Positions 1,100-35,543 of a DNA stretch of 55,661 nucleotides are shown piece by piece (the first letter of the stretch is position 1; each line of letters begins with the position of its first letter). Source of the stretch: Oscillospiraceae bacterium (GTDB taxonomy: Bacteria > Bacillota > Clostridia > UBA1212). Location of the stretch: NCBI GenBank assembly GCA_015069195.1, contig SVJA01000012.1, positions 1 through 55,661 of the forward strand. Direction: 5' to 3'. The position numbers and the translations under genes are program-made. The notes beneath the pieces are model-generated. The model was not told where the DNA came from and did not search any database. It saw nothing but the letters and a program-made list of their open reading frames with translations.

Positions 1100-3940
1100 A
1101 TGAGTAAACGCATTTTAAGTTTTGTGCTTATGGTTTGTGTTGTATTTACTGCTGTGACAGCAGGATATGCTTTTCCTGTTGAGAACACTGTAGAAGCGGC
1201 GACAACTCCCGTAAACTATAATGTTTTCGAGCAGAATGATACTGTCTGGAAAGATTTTGATCCGTCGGGCGGAGCAGATCCTTGTCCTATCGGACCTCAG
1301 GGTTGCGGACTTTTTTCCGTAGCTAATGCAGTTCACTATCTTACAGGTAATACTGTTGATATGAGAGAACTTTCTGTATGGGCTTGGACAAATCAGTACT
1401 ACAGAGCTGACGGTGCTACATATCGTTGGTTGCTTTATCCCAATCTTGCCAATGCTTTAGGCGGAAAGTACGGATTTACAACTCCTGTTACATGGAAAGG
1501 CGGTAAAGCGTCTGATACGCAGCTTCTTAATCACCTTGCAAACGGCGGTACTGCAGTAGGTCATGTATACGGTCACTTTATTTGCCTTGCTGATTATGAT
1601 GCAGCATCAGGCAGAATTCTTGTACTTGATTCTGCACCCGATTATGAGAGAAGATTTACACAGAGCGGTGGTAGCTGGCTTACGATATCCGAGCTTTCAG
1701 GAGAGAGCAGCTATATGATACTTGACGGTTACTGCTTATTGAGCAAAGCTACGGCTTCTATTTCAAACTATACTGCAACGACGTCGGTCGCATCAGGCAG
1801 CGGTTCCGTATTCTTTGCAAACGACCACACATCATGGAAATTCGGTGCAGGAAATACCGTTTTCTTTAAAGTCATTCCTGCTTCAGGATATAAAGTTTCT
1901 TCGATAACCGTCAACGGAGCTTCCATTGCTGTCAATAATAACGGCGAAACTGCAGCATATGCATTCACAATGCCTTCTGCAAATGCTACGGTAAGTGTTA
2001 AGTTTACTACAGGCGGTAAAACTTACAATCCCGCGGCTCTTACTTCAAATGTTGCTTATGATGTAAATGCAGGCCTTGTTGCTCGTGCTGACTGTACTGT
2101 CCCCGGTTCATACATAGGTCTTTTCCCTGCAAGTGCAACTACTTACACAAAAGATACTGCTGTATTTTATTATTCGGCACCGCAGTATTGGTATTTCGGA
2201 ATTGACAGTGCTACGGGTACCCCCTTTGCGACTACACGTCATCTGCAGTGCGGTTTACGCGGAGGAAATTATCTTTCATATGGTGCCGGTTCTTTCAAAG
2301 TGCTTTTGTTTACAGTGTCCGGCAGTGCAGTTTCAAATATAGTTAATGTTACATTGTCAGGTACTGCAAGTCATTACGGAGCGTTAACATATATTCCCGG
2401 AAATAGTACAAGCGGCGGAGATGACACAACTACTTTGTATACAGTTTCTATTTCGTCGTCAGAAGGTGGAACTGCTCATTTCGGAGACGGTGTTTTGTCA
2501 GGTCAGGTTACTGCAGGAACCGTTGTAAACTATCAGGTTGACCCAAGCGAGGGATATGTCGTTTCAAAGATTCTTGTAAACGGTGTTTCACAGACGATAC
2601 AAAATGACGGCGGAAGTTTTGTATATAACTTCATAATGACAGCTCAGACTACAACTGTTTCCGTAACATTTGCCAAAGCCAAGTCATTCCCGTCAGATGA
2701 TATTATTTTTGATAATTCGGATTCTGTTTCATGGATTGAGAATTCAGTAATTGTCGATGCGAGTGTAGCTCTTACAACAGATGCCGGCAGTGATACTTTT
2801 ATGAAAGTGACGGCTAAATCTTCTCCTGATCCGCAGTTTTATATGGATTATTCAAAGATTAGTGCGTTGAATGCTTCTGAATACAAATACATGGTGGTTA
2901 CTGCCAGAACAACTTCTTCGAATACCTTTGCAAAAATGTATCTCTGTCCGGGAAGTATTACAGGCCCTACAGAGGATTGTACAGCTTCTTGGAATTGGAA
3001 AAATGACGGTCTCTGGCATGATTATCTGATAGATCTTTCCGGTAAAACAAAATGGACCGGAAATCTTAATACAATCAGATTTGATTTCTTTGACGGTACA
3101 ACTACAAGCGGTATGTCACTTGATCTCCGTTCTGTAAAATTCTATAAAACAGCACCGTCGTCCCCGACTATAACAACCGATAAAACTGTTTATACGGTAG
3201 GAGATATGATTACAATTACTTACTCAGGTCTTGACAGTCATATCTCTACACAGCAGAACCAGATTCCTTTTATCGCTATATATGCTGAAGGTACATCACC
3301 GGGATCTGCTCCTGCAGGTCTCTACACAATGGTAACCGCAACAAGCGGAAATGCTGTTTATCCTACGGATGCAGTTGGTGGTTTGTATTACGGAAAAACT
3401 CTCGAACCCGGTACATATACTGCATGGATTGCTTACGATGCACAGGGTACATCAGGTGCATATAACTTGGGTAATGTTCATTATGCGGCAAGTTCTTCTT
3501 CGTTCACTTTTGTGATAAAAGAAGCGAGCAGTTCTGTTGATACATCATGCATCACTAATGTCGGCACAGGTGTTGCATCAGGCGAAAGTTCTATAGTTCC
3601 GATTGCCGGTACAACTGTTACAAATGCGATTACAGCACTTCAGACATTACTTAACGCTTCGTCTGTTTCTGTAACAAAAGACGGTGCGGCAGTTTCTGCA
3701 AATGCTGTTCTCTGTACAGGTATGTCAATTACTGCAGGTGCAAAATCATATACAGTAGTTGTAAAAGGCGACGTCGATTGTGACGGAAGTGCTACTGTTG
3801 CGGATGCTTCTGCTGTTATGGCAGGTCTCAGAGGCTCTGCGACTTTGTCTAAGGCAAGCATTGATGCTGCTGCAGAGTGCTCAGGTAACAAAGGTGCTTT
3901 GAGTATTTTGGATGTTATGGCAATTCTGAATTATATTTAA
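1100..3940 (+). CDS. secreted C39-like cysteine peptidase with repeat, carbohydrate-binding-like and dockerin-like modules
   Basis: This 946-residue exported protein has a signal peptide (residues 1 to about 33, Lys-Arg then a hydrophobic core). Residues about 45-220 look like a papain/C39-like peptidase: C69 in PQGCGLFS, H159 in GHFICLADYD and D177 in LVLDSAPD give a Cys-His-Asp triad. Two divergent InlB-type repeats follow (about 225-300 and 450-530). Next is a beta-sandwich module of carbohydrate-binding type (about 535-685) and an Ig-like module (about 690-800), both shared with the large protein at 31617-35543. The C-terminus is dockerin-like: GDVDCDGSATVAD (D891-D902) is a full calcium loop, while the second loop keeps only the ILDVMAILN helix. 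AAAAGGT lies upstream of the ATG. Peptidase activity is inferred from the triad. Confidence 0.8.
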   Translation: MSKRILSFVLMVCVVFTAVTAGYAFPVENTVEAATTPVNYNVFEQNDTVWKDFDPSGGADPCPIGPQGCGLFSVANAVHYLTGNTVDMRELSVWAWTNQYYRADGATYRWLLYPNLANALGGKYGFTTPVTWKGGKASDTQLLNHLANGGTAVGHVYGHFICLADYDAASGRILVLDSAPDYERRFTQSGGSWLTISELSGESSYMILDGYCLLSKATASISNYTATTSVASGSGSVFFANDHTSWKFGAGNTVFFKVIPASGYKVSSITVNGASIAVNNNGETAAYAFTMPSANATVSVKFTTGGKTYNPAALTSNVAYDVNAGLVARADCTVPGSYIGLFPASATTYTKDTAVFYYSAPQYWYFGIDSATGTPFATTRHLQCGLRGGNYLSYGAGSFKVLLFTVSGSAVSNIVNVTLSGTASHYGALTYIPGNSTSGGDDTTTLYTVSISSSEGGTAHFGDGVLSGQVTAGTVVNYQVDPSEGYVVSKILVNGVSQTIQNDGGSFVYNFIMTAQTTTVSVTFAKAKSFPSDDIIFDNSDSVSWIENSVIVDASVALTTDAGSDTFMKVTAKSSPDPQFYMDYSKISALNASEYKYMVVTARTTSSNTFAKMYLCPGSITGPTEDCTASWNWKNDGLWHDYLIDLSGKTKWTGNLNTIRFDFFDGTTTSGMSLDLRSVKFYKTAPSSPTITTDKTVYTVGDMITITYSGLDSHISTQQNQIPFIAIYAEGTSPGSAPAGLYTMVTATSGNAVYPTDAVGGLYYGKTLEPGTYTAWIAYDAQGTSGAYNLGNVHYAASSSSFTFVIKEASSSVDTSCITNVGTGVASGESSIVPIAGTTVTNAITALQTLLNASSVSVTKDGAAVSANAVLCTGMSITAGAKSYTVVVKGDVDCDGSATVADASAVMAGLRGSATLSKASIDAAAECSGNKGALSILDVMAILNYI

Positions 3941-12136: not shown

Positions 12137-14116
12137 ATGAAGCGTATTTCAAGTTTAGGCAAAAAACTTCGATCACTGGTACTTATTCTGTTTGCTGTGG
12201 TTACTTTGGTAGCAGGCGGATTTGCTATGGGCAATAATGGGTCGGATGTTGTTTTGCAGACAACGGAGGCTGCTGATCCGGGATGGAAGTGTTATTTTGG
12301 TAAGGCGTATAATAATTCAGCGCATACCACTCAAAATACAGGACGTCATTCAGGTGAGCATAACGTGACGCCTAAGGACGATCATTGGCATTACACTAAC
12401 TTTATTGCAGATTCCTCGGATGACCCCTATTTTTATGTCGGTAAGACTAAATACGATCTAGCCGGTAGTGGTCTGGGCAGTATAGATGCTGATGATTTAA
12501 AATATTTGGTTATCAGGTACTATGCCCAAACGCAGGGAAAATTCATGATGTATTTTGGTACAACTGCTGATCCGAATGCCCATCATACAAGTAACTATGA
12601 CTTTATTCCTGACAGTAAATGGCATGATATAGTTATAGATATGTCTGTTTATTCCGGATGGACAGGTACAATAAATTCTTTGCGAATGGACTTCCTTGAG
12701 TTTGGAGCGTCCGAGTATGTGTATTTGTCTTTTATTGCAGCGTTTGATACTGTTGAGCATTTAACTTCTTGGGCAAAGTCTTCAATTGTTATGGGGCAGA
12801 AGAAAGAAGATTCCGGCACAACTCAGACGGTAGAGAAGGAAAATCCTGTACATACCGAAACTATATATTTTGGTGGTACGAATGGTACATCGAGTTTACC
12901 GGCTACTGCCGGTGAGCTTAACAAGGTTACAACTCCCGGCTCAGGTGATTTTTCAGGGTGGAGATGTATATTCTGTGTAAAAGAAGGTTCACGCTATCGC
13001 ATTGTTGATTATAAGCTTGAAGGAGCGTCTGCAGGAGGTGCTTTTACCGTTGCATCATTTTTCCAATCTTATTCTACCGGTATAGTAATTGCAACAGCGA
13101 ATCCTGCCGGTAGTAATTTTAAAACTTTATGGAATTATATTTCACAGGAAAATTACATAAAAATCTCAGGAACTAAGCTCACTGTATATAAAGTTGTTAT
13201 GGAGAATGTGACGATTTATAATTACCCGGATATTGCTGCAGGAACCGTTACCGACCATAATGCGCTTACTACCACTAAGATGACAGGAACTGTGTCTGTC
13301 GGAGGCGGCAGTACAAAAGATCCTGTAGGTACCGATCTTTCTGAAAGACGTTTTTATCGAAGCAATCTTTCTCAATATTTGACAATGACCGGTGACACTA
13401 CTTCGATGAAATTTACATGTAAAAACGCAGCCGCAATGTATTCAATTACGCTTCCTGACAGGACAACAGGTAAGGTTGTTGCTAAAGTCGGAGTTTATTA
13501 TTCCAGTGATTCTCATGCCACCCAAAATAACAAAGATGGTGCTATCCAGTGGACATATCTTCCTAACGGATCTGACAGCACAGGCGTAGAAATTAATTTT
13601 CAGGATTCTTCGACTGTATCGCTTGGTTCTTATTATAATCAGGATTTGGGTTCTACGGGTTATGCCGACGAAGACGGTGATACAGGTACTGTAAATGCTG
13701 CCGTGTACAAAGGTAATGATAAATATCAGTATACGGGTAGTTTTGCACATCAGGTACTTCCTCCCGGAAAATATCAGGCGCGTCTTGAGTATGATGTATT
13801 GTTTAATAAGTATGTTAAGGTGAAATGTACAACCGGTACTCATATTGTTGCAGATCCTTTTGACGGTGCCAATTTGCGTGAGTGGCCCGGTGCAGGTGTT
13901 GCGAAGAAGTTTGGTACTGATACAACAGTTACAGATACTGACAGTTTGATTACAACGATTCCTTTGAATGTGGATATTTATGTCGGCTACGATGATACGG
14001 ATAAACGAAAAGCAGAGTGGTGGACAGAAAAAGTTGATGTCACAACTACTGCAAGCTCCGGAACAATGGCTCTGTATGGCGGCGTGTTTCATGCTTCTGA
14101 AGGCGGCAAAGCTTAA
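12137..14116 (+). CDS. secreted SH3-NlpC/P60 giant protein, N-terminal part (before in-frame stop)
   Basis: These 659 codons begin after a clear GGGAGG site with a signal peptide (residues 1 to about 31: KKLRS then a hydrophobic stretch). Residues about 110-210 hold a carbohydrate-binding-like beta-sandwich (WHDIVIDMSVYSGWTG) related to modules in the proteins at 1100 and 31617. The part ends inside a bacterial SH3 domain that starts near NLREWPGAG. The TAA at 14114-14116 is the only interruption: the same frame runs on as HKDHVWRVCKVNIDG, completing the SH3 domain, and stays open to 20089. This is therefore the front of a single 2650-codon gene. As it stands it would give an exported protein without a catalytic domain. 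Confidence 0.8.
   Translation: MKRISSLGKKLRSLVLILFAVVTLVAGGFAMGNNGSDVVLQTTEAADPGWKCYFGKAYNNSAHTTQNTGRHSGEHNVTPKDDHWHYTNFIADSSDDPYFYVGKTKYDLAGSGLGSIDADDLKYLVIRYYAQTQGKFMMYFGTTADPNAHHTSNYDFIPDSKWHDIVIDMSVYSGWTGTINSLRMDFLEFGASEYVYLSFIAAFDTVEHLTSWAKSSIVMGQKKEDSGTTQTVEKENPVHTETIYFGGTNGTSSLPATAGELNKVTTPGSGDFSGWRCIFCVKEGSRYRIVDYKLEGASAGGAFTVASFFQSYSTGIVIATANPAGSNFKTLWNYISQENYIKISGTKLTVYKVVMENVTIYNYPDIAAGTVTDHNALTTTKMTGTVSVGGGSTKDPVGTDLSERRFYRSNLSQYLTMTGDTTSMKFTCKNAAAMYSITLPDRTTGKVVAKVGVYYSSDSHATQNNKDGAIQWTYLPNGSDSTGVEINFQDSSTVSLGSYYNQDLGSTGYADEDGDTGTVNAAVYKGNDKYQYTGSFAHQVLPPGKYQARLEYDVLFNKYVKVKCTTGTHIVADPFDGANLREWPGAGVAKKFGTDTTVTDTDSLITTIPLNVDIYVGYDDTDKRKAEWWTEKVDVTTTASSGTMALYGGVFHASEGGKA
14114..14116 (+). 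other. in-frame TAA interrupting the giant wall-hydrolase gene
   Basis: Codon 660 is TAA (GCT TAA CAC) with no frame change on either side. The downstream frame has no ribosome binding site and no ATG near its beginning. One base substitution would restore the gene. No RNA structure that would suggest programmed readthrough was recognised immediately after the stop. Confidence 0.75.
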
Positions 14117-17100
14117 CACAAAGATCATGTATGGCGTGTTTGTAAGGTAAACATTGACGGCGTGTTGCATGAGGGATGGGTAGATACATATTATACCAAT
14201 TATTCTACTGTTATCGCGACATCTTCGAATATAAAGACTACATCTACATCTACTTCTATGGCTGATTTGGTGATGGTTCCGAGAAAAATGATGCGAACCG
14301 ATCCATACACATATAACTATGGACATTGGGAGCCGTTTACTTATCAGAAAGCTAAATCATCTGACTTTGCAGTCAGATGGACATGGTCGTTTAATTCGGA
14401 GGATAATGTTAAGGCTTTTGCAAAATCATACAAGCCTGATGATAACGAAAAACCAAACTCTTATTATTCAAGTGCTCAAGTAGAATTTAATACTGGAAAA
14501 TTCTTGACGCTCACTTCTACTGCGACAGCTGATTCCCTTAAATCTTTTTATATGGGTCATTTGTTTACTAAATCACTTACATATGATGATTATGATGTGG
14601 ATAAGGACGCCGGTTGGATATATGCCAATGCGATAAAACCTGCTACGAAAGGTCTGTGCCGTGTAGACTATGATGATCCGGTGAACTCGAATAACGCAAA
14701 CGGAGCCGGTACGAAAAATGCATTTTTCGGTATCGTTTACAGAACACAGGATAAAGTTGCCGCAACGAATAATATGTATGTTGCATTATGTGCCAATGAT
14801 ACCAAAACGGCCGGTGTTGACTATAGTTATGTGTCGATGGTTTGTGACGGACAATGGCATACCGCTGCGATAGATATCACTGCGAATCCGGAGTGGGCGC
14901 GTACCTCAGAGCAGAATAATAATAACGGTATAAGATATAATGATATGGTGTATATGCTTATACGACCGTTTAGTACTGATACAATCGTAGGCGGTAAGTC
15001 AATTGATATTGCTGCCGTAGGTATTTTTTCCACAGCTGAGGAAGCGCAGTCGTACGGTGATGCATATATTTCAACGAATGGTCTTGACAGTGCTAAAGGT
15101 CTTGTAAGGGTTATCACAAATACAGGAGGTACGGTTACTCTTTCAAAGGGTGGTTCAGGTACTTTGAGTAGTGATTCTACATATATTACAGGTGTATCTG
15201 CCGGTTCTACTTTTAAAGTAAACGTTGCTCCTGATGCCGGATACTACTGTTCGAAACTCTGCTGGAGACCGACCGGTTATACATTAAACGGCGGTAATTC
15301 AGGTGGTGTAAAAACTACATACTTTTCAGCCGGTTCTGCAGGTAACTCTTCTACCTATGCCGCAGACCATGCAAATGTTGTAGAGTATGTAGACGTACTT
15401 GACGGTAATTTTATGAATAACGGTATGTTTACCGGCGGTACTACGAATACCCCTGCTAACTGGCAGAATACTACTTGGGGTGATACAGTCATCGCTACTT
15501 CAGGTCAGATAAAGGCATATAATGCGGCTCTCGTAAAAAAGTATAAGGACGATATTACGGGTAAAACAGCACCTGTCGATATTCTCGATATGGCTGTCAG
15601 ATCCAAAGTAAACAAAGTGGCAACTATACAGACTTTTATAAATAATCTTTGTTCAAAAGAAGATGCAACGGCATGGGGGTTATCTGCGGCTTACGATAAC
15701 CGCAACTATGCAAATATTGCTAAACAAGATAAGGTTATATACGGAGTTGTAACTCAACGTGCCAATATCAGAGCGCTGCCTACTGCGGAGTCATACATTC
15801 CGGATGATGGTGATCATGATGTTGTACAAGAAGCCGGTCTTCCTTATGCTACTGCTGTATGGGTTCTACATACATCCACCGACGGTGCGTTCTATTTTGT
15901 TCAAACACCTTATTACAAGGGATGGGTAGATGCTACATGTATAGCGACTACTACTTCATACAAAGATTGGATAGAATTTGCAGATCCTGCTATTCGCGGT
16001 GACATTATAGTAACTATTGGTTGTTATAAAACTGTAAATGGACAGAAAGCGGAGATGGGTTGTGCTTTCCAGCTTGTGAGTTCTTCTGATACTGGTTACA
16101 CAATTAAGGTGCCTATAAAGAATGCTGACGGGTCTCTCGGAACAAAAGATGTTTCTATAAATAAAGATTACACAAACAAAGGTTATTTGCCTTATACTTG
16201 GAATAATTATATTGCTCGGGCTTTTAGATATCATAGTAAAGAATATTCTTGGGGTGATGAATCTTACGGTCAAGTAGACTGTAGTGCGTTTGCTATGTAT
16301 GTTTTTAAAGCATTCGGATTCCAGATAATGCGAAAGTCCGATGATCAGATTGGAACCGGATATACTACGCTAATGAACAGCAAGACTTACAGCAGATCGA
16401 CAGATGGTTATTATGACCTTGCTAAGTTCGGTGGTACGCCTATGATTCTTGCAGGAGGCGGTCATACTGTTCTTTATCTCGGTTGCGTAGGTGAGAAACA
16501 TTATGTTATAGAGGCGGCTGTCGGAGGCAAGGTAAATGTTAATCAATTAACATCCACTGAGCTTACTCAGATGTGTAATTACACAATAATGGCTCCAAAT
16601 AACTATCTGGAAGATGCATATGTAAGACAATACTTAACAGGTACTGCTAAGACGTTTACTGCTACACTTGAAACTCCTTCATATAAGAATTCAAGCGGAA
16701 CAGGATATACTTCTTCAACAAAGTATACTCTTAACCATACGGTAGATGCTGTTCCTTCCACTTCACTTGATAACGGCACAACTAAATATGATCAGTATGT
16801 TCTCAACTCCGGCGGTCGTGATATTTACGTATGGGCAGAGTTCACGAAAATTTCCAATGAAGTTGCTCTGGATATACAGATAGAAGTTCCGGATGGTTAT
16901 GGTTATGCTGACAAAGATTTTGGTAGTGTCCGGTTTGCTAACAATATGAAGACTTATGCGACTGTCGTAGCGAAAGAGTACAATACAACGCAGGCTGCCA
17001 GACTTGTTGTGTACAAAGGTTACAGAGTTAAAGCTATTGAGATAGAAGGTAGTGTGACGAGGTCTACTGCAAGTGTTACGGTGGGCGGTACAGGTGCCGT

Positions 17101-20089
17101 AGATACATCGATTACTGCTACATATACGCATGAGGGAAGAGGCAGTGCTTCTGAGTCATTGACCGTAGGCAGTGCTGATACAAACAAATTGTTGATTTCC
17201 ATTGATGAGCGGGATTATTTTAAACCTACCGGTGACGGTACAGTAAGGTATATTATAGAACCTATATCTTATACCATACAGTACAATTCAAACTATCCGA
17301 AGGATTCCGGTGTTTCCGATACAACGGTAACCGGTACGCATTACTATAACTGTACCGGTAATGTAATCGAAGGCAATGCAGAGTTTGTTGTTTCTGAGGG
17401 TCCCGGTGATAAGTGGTCGAAGAAGTATACTTTCAGTGCCGGAGATAACTATAGGTTTATGGGCTGGTCTAATAATACAAGCGGTGCCGACGGAGTTGCT
17501 TCTCGTTATTCAGATACTACCAATGAGAGTAGTGTTCAAAATTTGCTTTCATCTACCGGTACATATAACTATTATGCTAAATGGGCGCCTGTAAACTATA
17601 ATCTTTCCGTGGATTTTATTTCACAAGTTGACAGAGAATTGGTCGGAACACCCGAAGGTTTCAAAGTGGTAGTGGGTGGTAAAGAACTCAAAAACGGTGA
17701 AGTTGAAACTACTCAAACTGCATCTGTCATTCCTCTTTCGACATTTACGGAAACAAACTGTGATGCTACATATGACTCGACTAAGAAAATTTTGTCGATA
17801 AAGTCTACTGCTACATCCGGCGTATATTGTGATGTAACATTTTCAAATAAAAATATTCGTTCAAATTACGAATATATGACAATTACATATAAGATGTCCG
17901 GCGCTACTATGAAAGACCGCTTAGTGTTTGCTGTTGATGATTCTGATTATAATGATTTCAGCCAATTAACAGGAGCTGGGACGCTTAATTGTTTGTATGC
18001 AAATTGGATAGCTGACGGTGAGTGGCACACTATGTCAATAAATCTGGGTGAAATGAATATTTTCTATAACAAAAACAGAAATCTGACCGGTATACGTATC
18101 CCCGGAAGTAAGACAAACGGTGCATCTCTCGATATATCTTCAATTAAGTTATGGAAGAGTAAGCCGACCGTTTGGGGTGAGAGTACTGTTTCTAACAGTT
18201 CTTCTGAGGCAACTACTGCGCTCAAAACACAGGGAGACTATGGTTTTTCTCACAGGCTTAACAAGGGTACTACCGTGAATGTCGTTTCTGCACAGCAAGC
18301 TGACTACGGATTTGTTATGGATCTTCAGAAAGCTTATTTGGTGTTTAGAAAACTAAATAAAAGCACAAGCGATCCTGTATTTTCAAAGGCTGAATATGAG
18401 GCAAGCGAGTGGTATGATATCGGTACTTATACGACAGTTACGGTAAACGGAGTCAGTTTGCGTTGCCTTGATGTTTCCGACTACATAAAAAATCATACGT
18501 TTGATATGTCTGCTGCAAACTTCACAATGCCTGCCCATGATGTTCAGCTGATATTTGTATGCGACTATATGAAGTATACTGTTAAAGTCTTTACATATAC
18601 TGCCGGTGTGTCATACGACGCTATTGATGAGAGTGTAAGTGTGTCTAACACGGATTCTACGCCGTCAAAAGCTTTCACCGAAGCAACGGTAACTATCGAA
18701 TCTTCAAAGAACAACGGTATAATAGGTCGTTACGGCAGTACAGTGAAACTTTCGGTAAGCTCAATCACAAGCGGTAAGAAGTTCCTTGGTTGGTACGAGA
18801 AAAATCCCGACGCGACCAATACAAGCGGTAATGCATATGGTAAGCTCATTTCGACAAGTACATCGTTTACATTGTCAGAAAGTTTGCATAAGAATATGGA
18901 AATTGTGGCAGTATTCGGTTCGAGTACTTCTACAAACACAATATTTAATTTCTGTAATGCATCAGGGCAGGTTATACAGACGATTATTGCAGCACAGAAA
19001 AAATATATTCCGATTACGAATATTACGGCACGTCCGTACAAGACAAATTATGTGTTCAGTGGTTGGCAGCTTTTGAAAAATGCTGATAAGTCTGATTATG
19101 AAACAGTGACTTATAACAGTAAAACTTATTACAAGGTAGACGGTCCCACACAACCGGCATATACTTATAAATACAGCGTTCTTTACGAGGATAAGAACTG
19201 TACAAAACCGGCATACATTTACACCAGCGGAAAGGGTACGGTTTATATCGATGCCTGTTATACTCAGGTTGATTCTAAGGATGTTGTGGTTGAAGTTTTA
19301 GAAGGCGGTACGGTAAATGGTACAAATAAGGTAACTGTTCCTCGAAATACCACTGTTACGCTTAAAGCTACAGGTAGTGGTACATTTAAGGGTTGGATAG
19401 ATAAGGAAAAAACTTCAAAAGTTTTCATAGAGGGTGCATATTACGACGGTACATACTATTATCCTTATATCAGTTACCAAAAAAACTATTCGTTTAAAGT
19501 TTTGCGACAGATAAAGTTAATTGCAATCTATGATGCTGATGCAGCCAAGGATAATGTTCCAATGGTACATATGCCTATTTATTTACAGCGAGTCGATATG
19601 GGTTCTTACTATAGGTACACTGTTGTAGGATTTTTGACGATGACTCCGTCTGCCAAGTATACCATTTTGGAATGGGGCGCGTTATTCTTTATGGCACCTG
19701 ATGCGAATACTAAGCCGACAACGACATCTTACGATCCGGCGACCGGTGAAACAACAACTAAAAATATACTTACAACGGCAACGCCTTCTACTTACTTGCA
19801 GAAGATAACTAACTCCGCTTCTGATCAGATAAGTACGGCAGGACAGTTTTCTGCGGGTGTTAATGTTCAAAACGCACGTACAATGTATGTTCGATTGTAT
19901 TGCAGATACTCGTATGTAGATTCTGATACAAATGAGACGGTGTACGTGGTAACATACAGTAACACTATTCAAAGAGCAATATCAGCATATTCTGCTTCTG
20001 ACGCAACAGACGGTGTTGAATTCCCGAGCAACTATTATGGTACAACGATTCAGGACTATAAACCGAGTGATTATGAGAATTTGTTCTAA
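14117..20089 (+). pseudogene. SH3-NlpC/P60 giant protein, C-terminal part downstream of the stop
   Basis: The same frame continues for 1990 codons after the TAA. The first possible start is GTG at 14162, without a ribosome binding site, and no signal peptide exists, so this half is probably not expressed alone unless the stop is read through. Counting from the original ATG, a sugar-binding-like module lies at about 860-970 and a second SH3 domain at about 1200-1270. The NlpC/P60 catalytic domain is at about 1353-1488, with Cys1382 in VDCSAFAMYVF and His1443 in GGGHTVLYLG. InlB-like beta-repeats (FMGWSNN, FLGWYEK, FKGWIDK) and another sugar-binding-like module follow. NlpC/P60 domains usually cut gamma-D-Glu-diamino acid links in peptidoglycan. 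No dockerin or LPxTG anchor is seen at the end. Confidence 0.75.
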
Positions 20090-31616: not shown

Positions 31617-34600
31617 TTAAATTGAGTTCAAAACTGCCATCACATCAAGAATATTTACATTGTTTGCGTTCTTCACAAGAGCTGCATCATAATATTCATT
31701 TTCAAGCATATTTGTTCCGAGCAAATGTGCATATATCGCTGCTGCATCTGCAACATTTACGTCACCGTCAGGGTCGACATCTCCTTTGACAACAACTTTA
31801 TAAGTTTCATTGTCGGTTGCTACTGCCATACCGGTTGTGATGACATCACTGTCAGCGGCAGTTGCGCCTGAAACATTTGTTATTGTTGCGGCAGAAGAAC
31901 TGAAAGTCGCTTTAGCGTCACTTGAAAGTGAGCCGGCTGTTGTGCCTTTGTGAGCAGTAACAATTTTTGTACCGGTTGCAGAGCTTGTTCCGCTGCTGAT
32001 TATAGAAGTAGATTCTACGATATTGACAACGATTGGTTCATAATCTGCATAGTGAACGTTGTTCAGCGTTGCCGCACCATCTTTGTTTGCAGAGTCGTAT
32101 GCAAGCCAGATATGATACTCTCCTTCTGGTAATGCTCCGACTGTTGTACCGTAAATTATATCGTCAGGGAATGACACAAATCCGCTGTAATCATCTAAAA
32201 CGATATACTGAAGCGCACGGCCGTTTCCGGGAGATGTTTCAGGTGCGTAGAAAGCAAGGAACGGTAAAATGTTTTCCTGTCTTCTGTATTCGTCGAACAG
32301 ACCGGAGTAGTTTACTTTGACGTTTTCACCGTATGCAAAAGTATTTTTTTCAATTTTAACTGTCGGTGAAACAGGTTTTGTCCTCGAGAACTTAATCGAG
32401 CGCAGATACAAAGAACTGTTTGCCGCCGTTGTGCCGTCAAAGAAGTCAAAACGCAATTTATTGATATCACCTGTGAAGAGTGGAAGATCAGACAAGTCGA
32501 TTACATATTCGTGCCACAAACCGTCATTTATAAGTGTCCATGTCTTATAACATTCTGCTGTTGCATTTAATGTTTCGCCTGCGCATAAATACATTGTCGA
32601 ATGTGTATTTGACGCTGTGGTCTTCGCAACAACCGTCATATACTTATATTCGTCTGCTGATACTTTGTCAGAAAGAAGTGAGAAGTCAAAATATGCAAGC
32701 GGATCATCGTCTGAAACGGATGGTGTTGTATATTTCGCATAAATGTCACCAATTGCGTCTGACGTAATTTCAACGGATGAACCTTCTGAAACACCGCTTG
32801 CCTGCAGCCAATGCCCCATTGCTTGATTTTCAAATATAAGCTCTGTTCCGTTTGTCGGATATTCTTTAAGGATTGATTTTATAGAAGCGATTTCAGCAGC
32901 AGTAACTCCGCAATCGAGAAGGTACGCCTCTGTGTTTTGCTGAAGTGTGAGAGAAGAACTCTTGTATGATTTTAATCCTTTGAGCAGCATATTGATGTTG
33001 TGATTCATAGAATAAGTGCCTGCTTTGTCGAGATTTCCCATAGATGAAAACCATGAAAGCATGTATTCTTTATGAATTTCCGTGTCGCTGACATTACAGA
33101 GAGCCATCAAAAGTGCCTGAATGGTACCGGTACGGTCTCGACCGAGAGAACAATGGAACAAAATAGGGTAGTTTGATTCGTATGCAAACAAACTGATCGC
33201 ATCACCTATTGCAACCATATACTCACTCGAAGCGAAAATACCTTCATACCATCTTACACTGATAGGCTTCATATTTATGCTTGCGCCGAGAGGTGAAACA
33301 GTGGAAGAACCTCTTAAGTCGAGGTCGGTTTTTATACCGAGTTTATTTACAAGCATATCAATGTCGTATGCGGTAGCGCCTTCTAAAGCACCGCCTCTGT
33401 ATATAAGTCCTGTCTTTATTCTGTAACCGTCAATAGTTGTCAGACCGCCGCCGTCACGAAGATTGTTTATACCTTCAACATAAAGCTGATGCGGCTGATA
33501 ATCTGCAGTTGTAAATTTGTATACAGCAGATTTGTTTGAAGATGCATCGGTTATCTGCCAGTAATATTCGGTAGCAGGGAAAAGATTATATACATCAATG
33601 GTAGTTGCTGTTGTGGTATATGTGATTGCACCTGACATATCGGCAGATTTGCTGATTTTCAATGTATATGAACCTGAATTTCCTGTCCAAGCAAATTTTA
33701 CAGGAACCGGGTGACAATCTGTCTCTGTGTTACCGTCAGAATATTTTGTAACGACAACATCGTTGTTGTTTGTATAGTTTATATAATGTTGTTCAGCCCA
33801 ATAAGCCTTGACAGGGTCTTGCAAAATATTTACACCGTATGTTCCGTCGACAGGAGACTGAAGCTGAATTGTGTTATTTTTTGTGTCAGAGTTGTAGAAA
33901 ACAATCTGATTCTTTACCGTGAAAGCCTCTCCGTCAAAAGCGTAGAAATCATTTCTGTTAAGACTTCCGATAGTATATGTTCCGAGTCTGCCGTTTGTAA
34001 TATTTGCATCATATGAAACACTGTAATCAAAAACAAAAGAACTTGCACCAACGGAAATCGGTGTAACATTGACCGTGATTCTGCTGTCAGAAATGGCTGA
34101 TTCAAGTTTTGTTGCAATCTGCTGTGCCGCATCCGGTGCAGAGTAAGTTTCTGCAAGGGTATAGGAAAGATCTGTAATTTTAGAAACTGCGTTGCTCAGA
34201 GCGGTTTCTGCGGTAGCATTGAATGATTCGTATGTGAAAGGAACATTCAGGTGGAGAATGTAGTTGCTGTTGTTTGAAACCGCGCGAATAACAAAATTAT
34301 ATGAAGCACCGCTTGTGAGTGTTGTGCCGTAATCAAGGAATGCATTTATATAAAGTGATCTTATACCTGTGGAAACGGTTTTGAGATATGTCGGTGCATG
34401 CCATTTAACCGAAGATGCCTTATAGTCCGTAGAAGATGGGATAACGGCATATTCAAAAGTCGCAATACCTTCCGCACAAGAAGCCGTGTTTGCAGTAAGA
34501 CTAACGATACCTGCTTTATCAAATGCAGTCTGATGTTGATTGTAATTGTTATGTGAAGAACCGTAAGATCCTGTGTTGTTGTCAAGCCATGCATTTGTAA

Positions 34601-35543
34601 GTTTCGGAACTACCGCTGTAAGTCCGGTATATGTCTGTGTGCCTGCACTCGCCGTAGTGAAAGTTACGTTGTAAGTTATAGATCCGTTTGCCGCAGATGT
34701 GTTGGCAGTATAAGCAGTCGCGGTAACGCTTATAGTTGCTGCAATATTTGCTGCTGTGAGACGTGCTGCAATTTCATCGGCAACAGCAGTAACGGCGCCG
34801 CTCTTATAACGAATATCATTATCTGAAAGCGTAACATTTGAATAACCACCGATATCGGAAGTGAATGTAATACTATTTATGTAGTATGTCGCACTGTTTC
34901 TATCACGAATATAGAGCTTGAATGATCTTATATAACCGTCAGTATCCTGGATGGCTGTCATGTCATTCATTTGCAGATCAATGGTTTTCCATGTTGATGT
35001 AGCTCCTGCAAGGGAAACGCTTGAGTAGCTGTTTTCTATAGCGCTGTTACTGGAAGCATCCTGCTTAAGGATTCTGGCAGATGCAGCAGCAGACGCGGTA
35101 TCAGGACTTATGTCTGTCATAAAAGTCATAGACATGCCTGTAACGGAACTTGCAAGTACAGGTGTGTTTAAAGTAATCATAAATCCGCCTTGTTTAACTC
35201 CTGTCGGCGCGATTTTGTAGCAATTTCTGCCGTTGTAAGTAGTGTAACCGCATTTAGTTGTATCTGTGCAACTTAAGCAATCATGAATACCGTCAATTCC
35301 GATAGAAGAAAGTAAATAAAGACTACTGCCTGAAACAAACTCAAGGCTGAGTCCTGCGGCAGTTTGTGTGCCTGTAGATTGTGCAGTAGCACTTGAAATG
35401 CCGGTGTCTGCGGAATTTGTCACATTATGTGATAAATCGCTGTAAGTTTCAGCTGAAAGTGTCATTGGTGTAATCATAGTACAAACCATAACGATACAGA
35501 GAAAAATGCTGATTATTCTCTCTGAAGAAAACATACGTTTCAT
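31617..35543 (-). CDS. secreted Cys-based tyrosine phosphatase with Fn3, sugar-binding-like and dockerin-like modules
   Basis: The 1308 residues start at ATG 35543 after AAAGGAAAA; the upstream extension of the frame is rejected. A signal peptide (about 1-30) is followed by a long beta-rich region. A fibronectin III-like module (about 595-680) precedes a phosphatase of the Y_phosphatase3 type (about 685-905): NLRDGGGL, IYRGGAL, DLDLRG and the active site HCSLGRDRTG, where C798-x5-R804 is complete. A carbohydrate-binding-like module (about 908-1052) and an Ig-like module (about 1058-1182) closely parallel those of the protein at 1100-3940. The end is dockerin-like: GDVDPDGDVNVAD (D1255-D1266) is a full calcium loop, the second loop is degenerate, and NILDVMAVLN follows. 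The substrate is unknown. Confidence 0.85.
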   Translation of the reverse strand: MKRMFSSERIISIFLCIVMVCTMITPMTLSAETYSDLSHNVTNSADTGISSATAQSTGTQTAAGLSLEFVSGSSLYLLSSIGIDGIHDCLSCTDTTKCGYTTYNGRNCYKIAPTGVKQGGFMITLNTPVLASSVTGMSMTFMTDISPDTASAAASARILKQDASSNSAIENSYSSVSLAGATSTWKTIDLQMNDMTAIQDTDGYIRSFKLYIRDRNSATYYINSITFTSDIGGYSNVTLSDNDIRYKSGAVTAVADEIAARLTAANIAATISVTATAYTANTSAANGSITYNVTFTTASAGTQTYTGLTAVVPKLTNAWLDNNTGSYGSSHNNYNQHQTAFDKAGIVSLTANTASCAEGIATFEYAVIPSSTDYKASSVKWHAPTYLKTVSTGIRSLYINAFLDYGTTLTSGASYNFVIRAVSNNSNYILHLNVPFTYESFNATAETALSNAVSKITDLSYTLAETYSAPDAAQQIATKLESAISDSRITVNVTPISVGASSFVFDYSVSYDANITNGRLGTYTIGSLNRNDFYAFDGEAFTVKNQIVFYNSDTKNNTIQLQSPVDGTYGVNILQDPVKAYWAEQHYINYTNNNDVVVTKYSDGNTETDCHPVPVKFAWTGNSGSYTLKISKSADMSGAITYTTTATTIDVYNLFPATEYYWQITDASSNKSAVYKFTTADYQPHQLYVEGINNLRDGGGLTTIDGYRIKTGLIYRGGALEGATAYDIDMLVNKLGIKTDLDLRGSSTVSPLGASINMKPISVRWYEGIFASSEYMVAIGDAISLFAYESNYPILFHCSLGRDRTGTIQALLMALCNVSDTEIHKEYMLSWFSSMGNLDKAGTYSMNHNINMLLKGLKSYKSSSLTLQQNTEAYLLDCGVTAAEIASIKSILKEYPTNGTELIFENQAMGHWLQASGVSEGSSVEITSDAIGDIYAKYTTPSVSDDDPLAYFDFSLLSDKVSADEYKYMTVVAKTTASNTHSTMYLCAGETLNATAECYKTWTLINDGLWHEYVIDLSDLPLFTGDINKLRFDFFDGTTAANSSLYLRSIKFSRTKPVSPTVKIEKNTFAYGENVKVNYSGLFDEYRRQENILPFLAFYAPETSPGNGRALQYIVLDDYSGFVSFPDDIIYGTTVGALPEGEYHIWLAYDSANKDGAATLNNVHYADYEPIVVNIVESTSIISSGTSSATGTKIVTAHKGTTAGSLSSDAKATFSSSAATITNVSGATAADSDVITTGMAVATDNETYKVVVKGDVDPDGDVNVADAAAIYAHLLGTNMLENEYYDAALVKNANNVNILDVMAVLNSI

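Follow-up and report, generated by a model that had tools for sequence, protein, structure and literature searches.

The locus described here lies on contig SVJA01000012.1 of an Oscillospiraceae bacterium (assembly GCA_015069195.1), whose forward strand, positions 1 to 55,661, was analyzed over its full length and is called the window below. A minus-strand open reading frame (ORF) at 31617-35543 encodes a protein of 1308 amino acids; it starts with the ATG at 35543, just downstream of a ribosome-binding-like site, AAAGGA. An earlier note on this DNA had described a secreted tyrosine phosphatase bearing a dockerin, and its coordinates, length and active-site motif, HCSLGRDRTG, all proved exact. 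Our main finding is that this gene apparently joins a complete cysteine phosphatase of the PF13350 type to the dockerin cassette that is standard in its own genome. The type of enzyme is known; its mounting on a dockerin appears to be rare. The modules are as follows.

31617..35543, minus strand: whole gene, exported multi-modular phosphatase of 1308 amino acids (ORF with the AAAGGA site).
35451..35543, minus strand: Sec signal peptide, residues 1-31 (hydrophobic core 3.26; cleavage after LSA by eye; 82% conserved in the orthologue).
34824..35366, minus strand: N1 module, residues 60-240, beta-type (BLAST to relatives).
34164..34823, minus strand: N2 module, residues 241-460, common to relatives in the order and class.
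33744..34163, minus strand: N3 stretch, residues 461-600, fast-evolving (56% identical in the orthologue).
33480..33743, minus strand: Fn3-like domain, residues 601-688 (in the alignment of relatives; Foldseek Fn3 matches of a low-confidence model).
32868..33479, minus strand: phosphatase domain PF13350, residues 689-892 (E 3e-28; second search E 9.5e-29).
33126..33155, minus strand: active-site loop HCSLGRDRTG, residues 797-806, with Cys798, Arg802, Asp803 and Arg804 (H, C, G, D, R and T invariant in 27 aligned domains).
32316..32855, minus strand: C1 module, residues 897-1076, jelly-roll-like, opening the dockerin cassette (recurs in further ORFs of this genome, 31-53% identical; low-confidence CBM4/CBM86-like Foldseek matches).
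32019..32315, minus strand: C2 module, residues 1077-1175, Ig-like by pattern (repeated in other ORFs).
31788..32018, minus strand: pre-dockerin beta segment, residues 1176-1252, common to other dockerin ORFs (matches from about 1177 to 1308).
31620..31787, minus strand: dockerin-like module, residues 1253-1308 (first loop intact, second without its ligands).

Residues 689-892 belong to the family Y_phosphatase3 (PF13350), scoring 99.8 bits against a curated Pfam cut-off of 22.2, and the E value of 3e-28 rules out a chance C-x5-R motif. The complete C-x5-R site that the earlier note had pointed to lies within this domain. Across an alignment of 27 domains N-R-D-GG and HC..G.DRT.T are invariant, and profile matches were obtained to the solved structures 8dhi (2.8e-28) and 1ywf, the M. 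tuberculosis PtpB (1e-10). An NCBIfam scan of the 1308-residue protein gave no match.

In the family centred on MptpB, as described in excerpts of PMC3091653, an Asp at loop position 6 is essential and presumed to be the general acid, the WPD loop is absent, and a Lys at position 5 matters for phosphoinositide binding; loops with two basic residues and none at position 2 show a reported preference for singly phosphorylated inositides. A general-acid Asp, which the earlier note had named as a check, is present here as Asp803 at loop position 6, the position described as essential in those excerpts, and no WPD or KNRY string occurs anywhere in the protein; this is the arrangement that defines the catalytic Asp of atypical lipid phosphatases. 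Their signature, HCXXGKDR[TA]G with a strictly conserved Lys, is broken by HCSLGRDRTG, in which Arg802 stands at position 5. With Asp803 kept, WPD absent and Arg802 in place of Lys, the window phosphatase should act like the MptpB-centred family without carrying its defining signature. Position 5 varies among 57 related ORFs: R in 27 (a count that takes in the phage row L089), A in 16, K in 10, T in 2, and I and C in 1 each. Both ends lay inside the stretch read for 54 of the 57, and the orthologue presented below was counted once.

The N-terminus has the look of a typical Sec signal, with a hydrophobic core averaging 3.26 on the Kyte-Doolittle scale over 12 residues and a plausible cleavage site after LSA31, both judged by eye except for the score, and this strong core supports the export that the earlier note had proposed. 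The same note held that phosphatases of this type are normally free enzymes, a view that this subfamily contradicts. A crude hydrophobicity screen classes 31 of the 57 related ORFs as resembling exported or membrane-anchored proteins and 24 as not, with 2 truncated at the 5' end, and an export-like segment is found in 23 of the 27 with a GRDR-type loop; as the set was gathered by similarity to the window protein it is biased, and these shares are no general estimate. Many of the export-like ORFs are lipoproteins or membrane-anchored forms. In at least four relatives the phosphatase lipoprotein is directly followed by a protein of 412-451 amino acids with a signal-like N-terminus and no clear family (L131:4982-6220, L133:3702-5009, L134:3118-4470 and L135:4431-5786), a possible partner. 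Elsewhere, four phosphatase ORFs with the loop HCxxG-A-DRTG, apparently not exported, are packed within 5.7 kb (L143:4628-10319, G130 C108).

A syntenic orthologue, 80% identical and with the full architecture and gene order kept, is present in RGIG4242, a metagenome-assembled genome (MAG) from roe deer colon; the phosphatase domain is 82% identical and the cassette 71-74%. The ratio of nonsynonymous to synonymous substitution rates (dN/dS) between the two genes is about 0.115, both overall and in the phosphatase domain, a value that is approximate as dS is above 1, and it indicates that the window gene is under purifying selection. A pseudogene is ruled out by the open frame, the orthologue and dN/dS, and an assembly chimera of a phosphatase gene and a dockerin gene by the presence of the same fusion, in the same gene order, in the roe deer MAG.

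The two halves of the protein have different kin. For residues 60-890 the matches are to a broader group of exported Fn3-phosphatases from gut Clostridia; within this span, residues 60-460 have counterparts in exported phosphatases from a second family of the order (G016, G019-G022) and also in that of G127, a genome from a different family of the class (these modules 47-52% identical), where an N1-type module flanks the phosphatase on both sides. These matching phosphatases carry no dockerin, and several end in a membrane-anchor-like segment. Residues 897-1308, in turn, are a cassette repeated through the window's own genome in other exported proteins, and the fusion point falls near residue 895. 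Because the N-terminal part matches exported phosphatases and the C-terminal part the genome's cassette, the protein is, as far as its sequence tells, a phosphatase fused to the local dockerin cassette.

Three other ORFs of the window, all on the plus strand, touch on this cassette:

1100-3940, plus strand: exported protein of 946 amino acids that has a weak C39-like peptidase domain and ends in the phosphatase's cassette (about 39-45% identical).
12137-14116, plus strand: ORF of 659 amino acids with no Pfam match at E<=0.01, weakly similar to the C1 module.
14162-20089, plus strand: protein of 1975 amino acids with SH3_6 and NlpC/P60 domains, weakly similar to the cassette.

Two accessory modules had been named in the earlier note. 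The Fn3-like one is borne out by an fn3 match of the relative L127, narrowly below cut-off, and by the best Foldseek matches of a low-confidence model, which are mostly Fn3. The sugar-binding-like one fares less well: low-confidence Foldseek matches of the C-terminal model to CBM4/CBM86 jelly rolls, amid much noise, speak for it, but Pfam gave no carbohydrate-binding module in the protein, and a sequence search of the PDB with the N-terminal and C-terminal modules, N1 and N2 included, gave no match at E below 0.05. Rows for botulinum-toxin binding domains, with TM-scores near 0.2 and root-mean-square deviations of about 17-20, were discarded as noise from common beta-sandwich folds. The sugar-binding label is tentative, and the weakest part of the architecture, because fold searches of poor models carry little weight. 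Both AlphaFold2 models are indeed poor, built on alignments of 2 and 3 rows (predicted local distance difference test, pLDDT, 46 and predicted template modelling score, pTM, 0.35; pLDDT 58 and pTM 0.53).

The dockerin match at residues 1253-1306 is weak in the Pfam scan of the protein (Dockerin_1, PF00404; 16.8 bits, and 23.1 in the genome scan, against a cut-off of 22.9), and a model made from the dockerins of this genome lifts it to 63 bits. In the first calcium loop, which is complete, positions 1, 3, 5, 9 and 12 carry D, D, D, N and D. A dockerin-like module on a complete phosphatase domain, as the earlier note had it, is supported. The genome (2.0 Mb, 95.75% complete) contains 21 Dockerin_1 matches at E<=0.1, 13 of them above cut-off, and 5 cohesin matches, 4 above cut-off, which could receive dockerin cargo; a membrane-anchor-like segment and a basic tail form the C-terminus of two of the cohesin proteins. 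A search of 8 other genomes found cohesins in 6, among them the two further genomes that have a dockerin-phosphatase. The cargo domains are this phosphatase, transglutaminase-like, GDSL lipase, leucine-rich repeat (LRR) and SH3 domains, together with below-cut-off matches to a C39-like peptidase and a metallophosphatase, and cassette modules recur in the amidase L070 and in a second GDSL protein (L065:2915-8704). Because none of the 21 dockerin ORFs carries a glycoside hydrolase domain (domain scans at E thresholds from 0.01 to 1; L082 and L073 in part) and the genome has no GH9 or GH5 glycoside hydrolase at E<=0.001, the families searched, this cohesin-dockerin system does not look like a classical cellulosome.

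We propose, with about an even chance of being right, that the protein is an exported PF13350-type cysteine phosphatase fused to the standard dockerin cassette of its genome and mounted through that dockerin on a surface cohesin. The enzyme is probably active. After Sec export, the dockerin would plug into a membrane-anchored cohesin protein, a step that we infer, and would place the phosphatase on the cell surface, together with other degradative cargo such as peptidase-like proteins and lipases. There, Cys798 would attack a phosphate monoester, held by Arg804 and the loop amides, with Asp803 as general acid and Arg802 standing in for the family's binding Lys. Three observations weigh against this proposal. 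The second calcium loop of the dockerin reads L,K,A,N,D and lacks the ligands expected of a type I dockerin, and because it is degenerate, cohesin binding is putative. The loop Lys that matters for binding phosphoinositides is replaced by Arg. Finally, a fold search with the phosphatase model (pLDDT 46) returned nothing under E 0.001, so that the phosphatase fold rests on sequence profiles.

The second loop also feeds a different account, in which no cohesin complex forms: the dockerin-like module would be decayed or turned to binding the wall, leaving the enzyme free or attached through other modules. Among 17 dockerins of the genome in which both loops fitted the reading pattern, only 2 keep D/N at positions 1, 3, 5 and 12, whereas 15, the window's included, have lost at least one ligand (L074 and L078 are short of one only), and the Pfam score of the module is at or below cut-off. 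We regard this account as distinctly unlikely, given that the cassette is conserved in the orthologue, that each of the three genomes encoding a dockerin-phosphatase has cohesins above cut-off, and that the first loop of the window protein is intact. An intact first loop in 17 of 17 dockerins is no independent evidence, because the reading pattern demands it; a few non-fitting dockerins were left out. Most of the readable dockerins of the window's genome (G000, L064-L081) combine an intact first loop with a degenerate second one, as if one loop sufficed.

As for what the window phosphatase acts on, phosphate monoesters carried by glycoconjugates or proteins that are captured at the cell surface would be the likeliest class. 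Its loop, with two basic residues but none at position 2, is of the type linked to singly phosphorylated inositides in excerpts of PMC3091653, which favours substrates with a single phosphate over phytate or polyphosphoinositides. This same feature tells against phosphate scavenging from dietary inositol phosphates, in the manner of the secreted phytases of gut bacteria that resemble protein tyrosine phosphatases (PTP-like). The shared C-x5-R chemistry, the export and the herbivore-gut origin of the orthologue would suit such a role, but no PTPlike_phytase (PF14566) match was found in the genome at E<=0.1 or in the protein at E<=1, and we think it very improbable. Equally little can be expected of a signalling role on phosphotyrosine or phosphoinositides of the host, close to what the earlier note suggested. 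This possible action rests on family resemblance, namely the relation to MptpB and Listeria phosphatases with activities of this kind (excerpts of PMC3091653; the 1ywf profile match). Against it, no injection or entry route is seen for a protein of 1308 amino acids with a dockerin, host phosphoinositides are intracellular, the loop Lys that would bind them is Arg here, and relatives occur throughout Clostridia as lipoproteins and anchored forms; we rate it highly unlikely.

A role on the cell's own envelope, in which the enzyme dephosphorylates exopolysaccharide, teichoic-type polymers or peptidoglycan-linked groups during wall remodelling, is unlikely too, if less so than the other alternatives. 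It stays in play because a membrane-anchored paralogue at C22 adjoins sugar transferase and glycosyltransferase genes and because the relative of that paralogue in G013 sits between two UDP-N-acetylglucosamine (UDP-GlcNAc) 2-epimerase genes, both in polysaccharide loci; cassette modules are also found in the amidase and, weakly, in the NlpC/P60 protein. However, the paralogue is about 40% identical and its role may differ, and the neighbours of the dockerin-phosphatase gene are, as judged by eye, gltX-like and phosphoglycerate mutase-like, not wall genes. The C22 paralogue (L087:4141-5592, G000) is an Fn3-phosphatase with a His-rich stretch before its membrane segment and adjoins exopolysaccharide genes; its relative L140:5739-6923 is likewise in a polysaccharide locus. 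More broadly, the neighbourhoods of 18 stretches with relatives are mostly housekeeping-like by eye and offer no clue to the substrate, the exceptions being the polysaccharide loci of two membrane-anchored relatives.

Relatives of the window phosphatase are frequent in the order (22 of 31 genomes at E<=1e-5) and sparse in the class (25 of 391 evenly sampled genomes at E<=1e-10). A scan of viral contigs yielded a single remote relative (28%), left out of the tree, and a phage origin was rejected. The tree holds 46 of the 47 rows that passed the motif filter; not all ORFs fetched later, in the set of 57, are included. In it the window protein, its orthologue, G127 and five relatives from the order form a clade with support 97/96. 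By the model of the genome's own dockerins, 3 of the 57 related phosphatase ORFs bear a dockerin, namely the window protein, the orthologue and L058 of G012, a protein of 523 amino acids in which the dockerin (Pfam, 40.9 bits) is N-terminal to Fn3 and phosphatase. L058 pairs in the tree with its tandem neighbour L049 (support 98/94). The G012 tandem pair is laid out as follows.

L088:2330-3901: phosphatase with N-terminal dockerin.
L088:3846-5051: membrane-anchored phosphatase without dockerin.

Because L058 groups with L049, which is membrane-anchored and has no dockerin, the dockerin was gained at least twice, independently in two families of one order.

Most work on cohesin-dockerin systems concerns the breakdown of plant fibre. 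A complete tyrosine-type phosphatase among the cargo, acquired independently in two families of one order and present in a genome that lacks the two cellulase families searched, points to other uses of the scaffold, here extracellular phosphate chemistry on the surface of gut bacteria. Should the enzyme act on phosphates of glycans or proteins, it would open up a poorly known part of the gut's extracellular biochemistry. One may go further and imagine a non-cellulosomal surface complex, with dockerins that function through one calcium loop only, which removes phosphate, acyl and peptide groups from glycoconjugates of the host or the envelope, and in which the GRDR-loop phosphatase and its constant Fn3-like partner form a new class of extracellular phosphoglycan-acting enzymes; this broader picture is unlikely and offered as speculation.

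Among known systems, the rumen PTP-like phytases (PF14566) are secreted C-x5-R enzymes of gut bacteria, and the window phosphatase differs from them in its Pfam family; PHP is a metal-dependent fold and unrelated. The atypical lipid phosphatases (MptpB, Listeria Lmo1800), as far as the excerpts of PMC3091653 go, share with it the PF13350-type domain, the C-x5-R loop, the Asp at position 6 and the lack of WPD; unlike them, the window protein has Arg for the defining Lys at position 5, is exported, multi-modular and dockerin-bearing, and has an Fn3-like domain before the catalytic one. No dockerin tyrosine phosphatase was found in a literature search, with preprints and most subscription journals outside its range, or in the passages seen of PMC2930009, PMC5590126 and PMC2721979. 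The nearest likeness on the dockerin side is to the non-glycosidase dockerin proteins of Ruminococcus flavefaciens FD-1 (transglutaminase, LRR, peptidase, serpin; excerpts of PMC2930009), which have transglutaminase and LRR cargo in common with the window genome and likewise a conserved dockerin-bearing C-terminal part behind variable N-terminal parts. Unlike the window genome, FD-1 has a true cellulosome, and the paper nowhere uses the word 'phosphatase'; its excerpts do put single-repeat and atypical-loop dockerins on record for R. flavefaciens. A similarly wide cargo beyond carbohydrate-active enzymes is described, in excerpts of PMC5590126, for Pseudobacteroides cellulosolvens, whose 71 dockerin proteins include putative peptidases.

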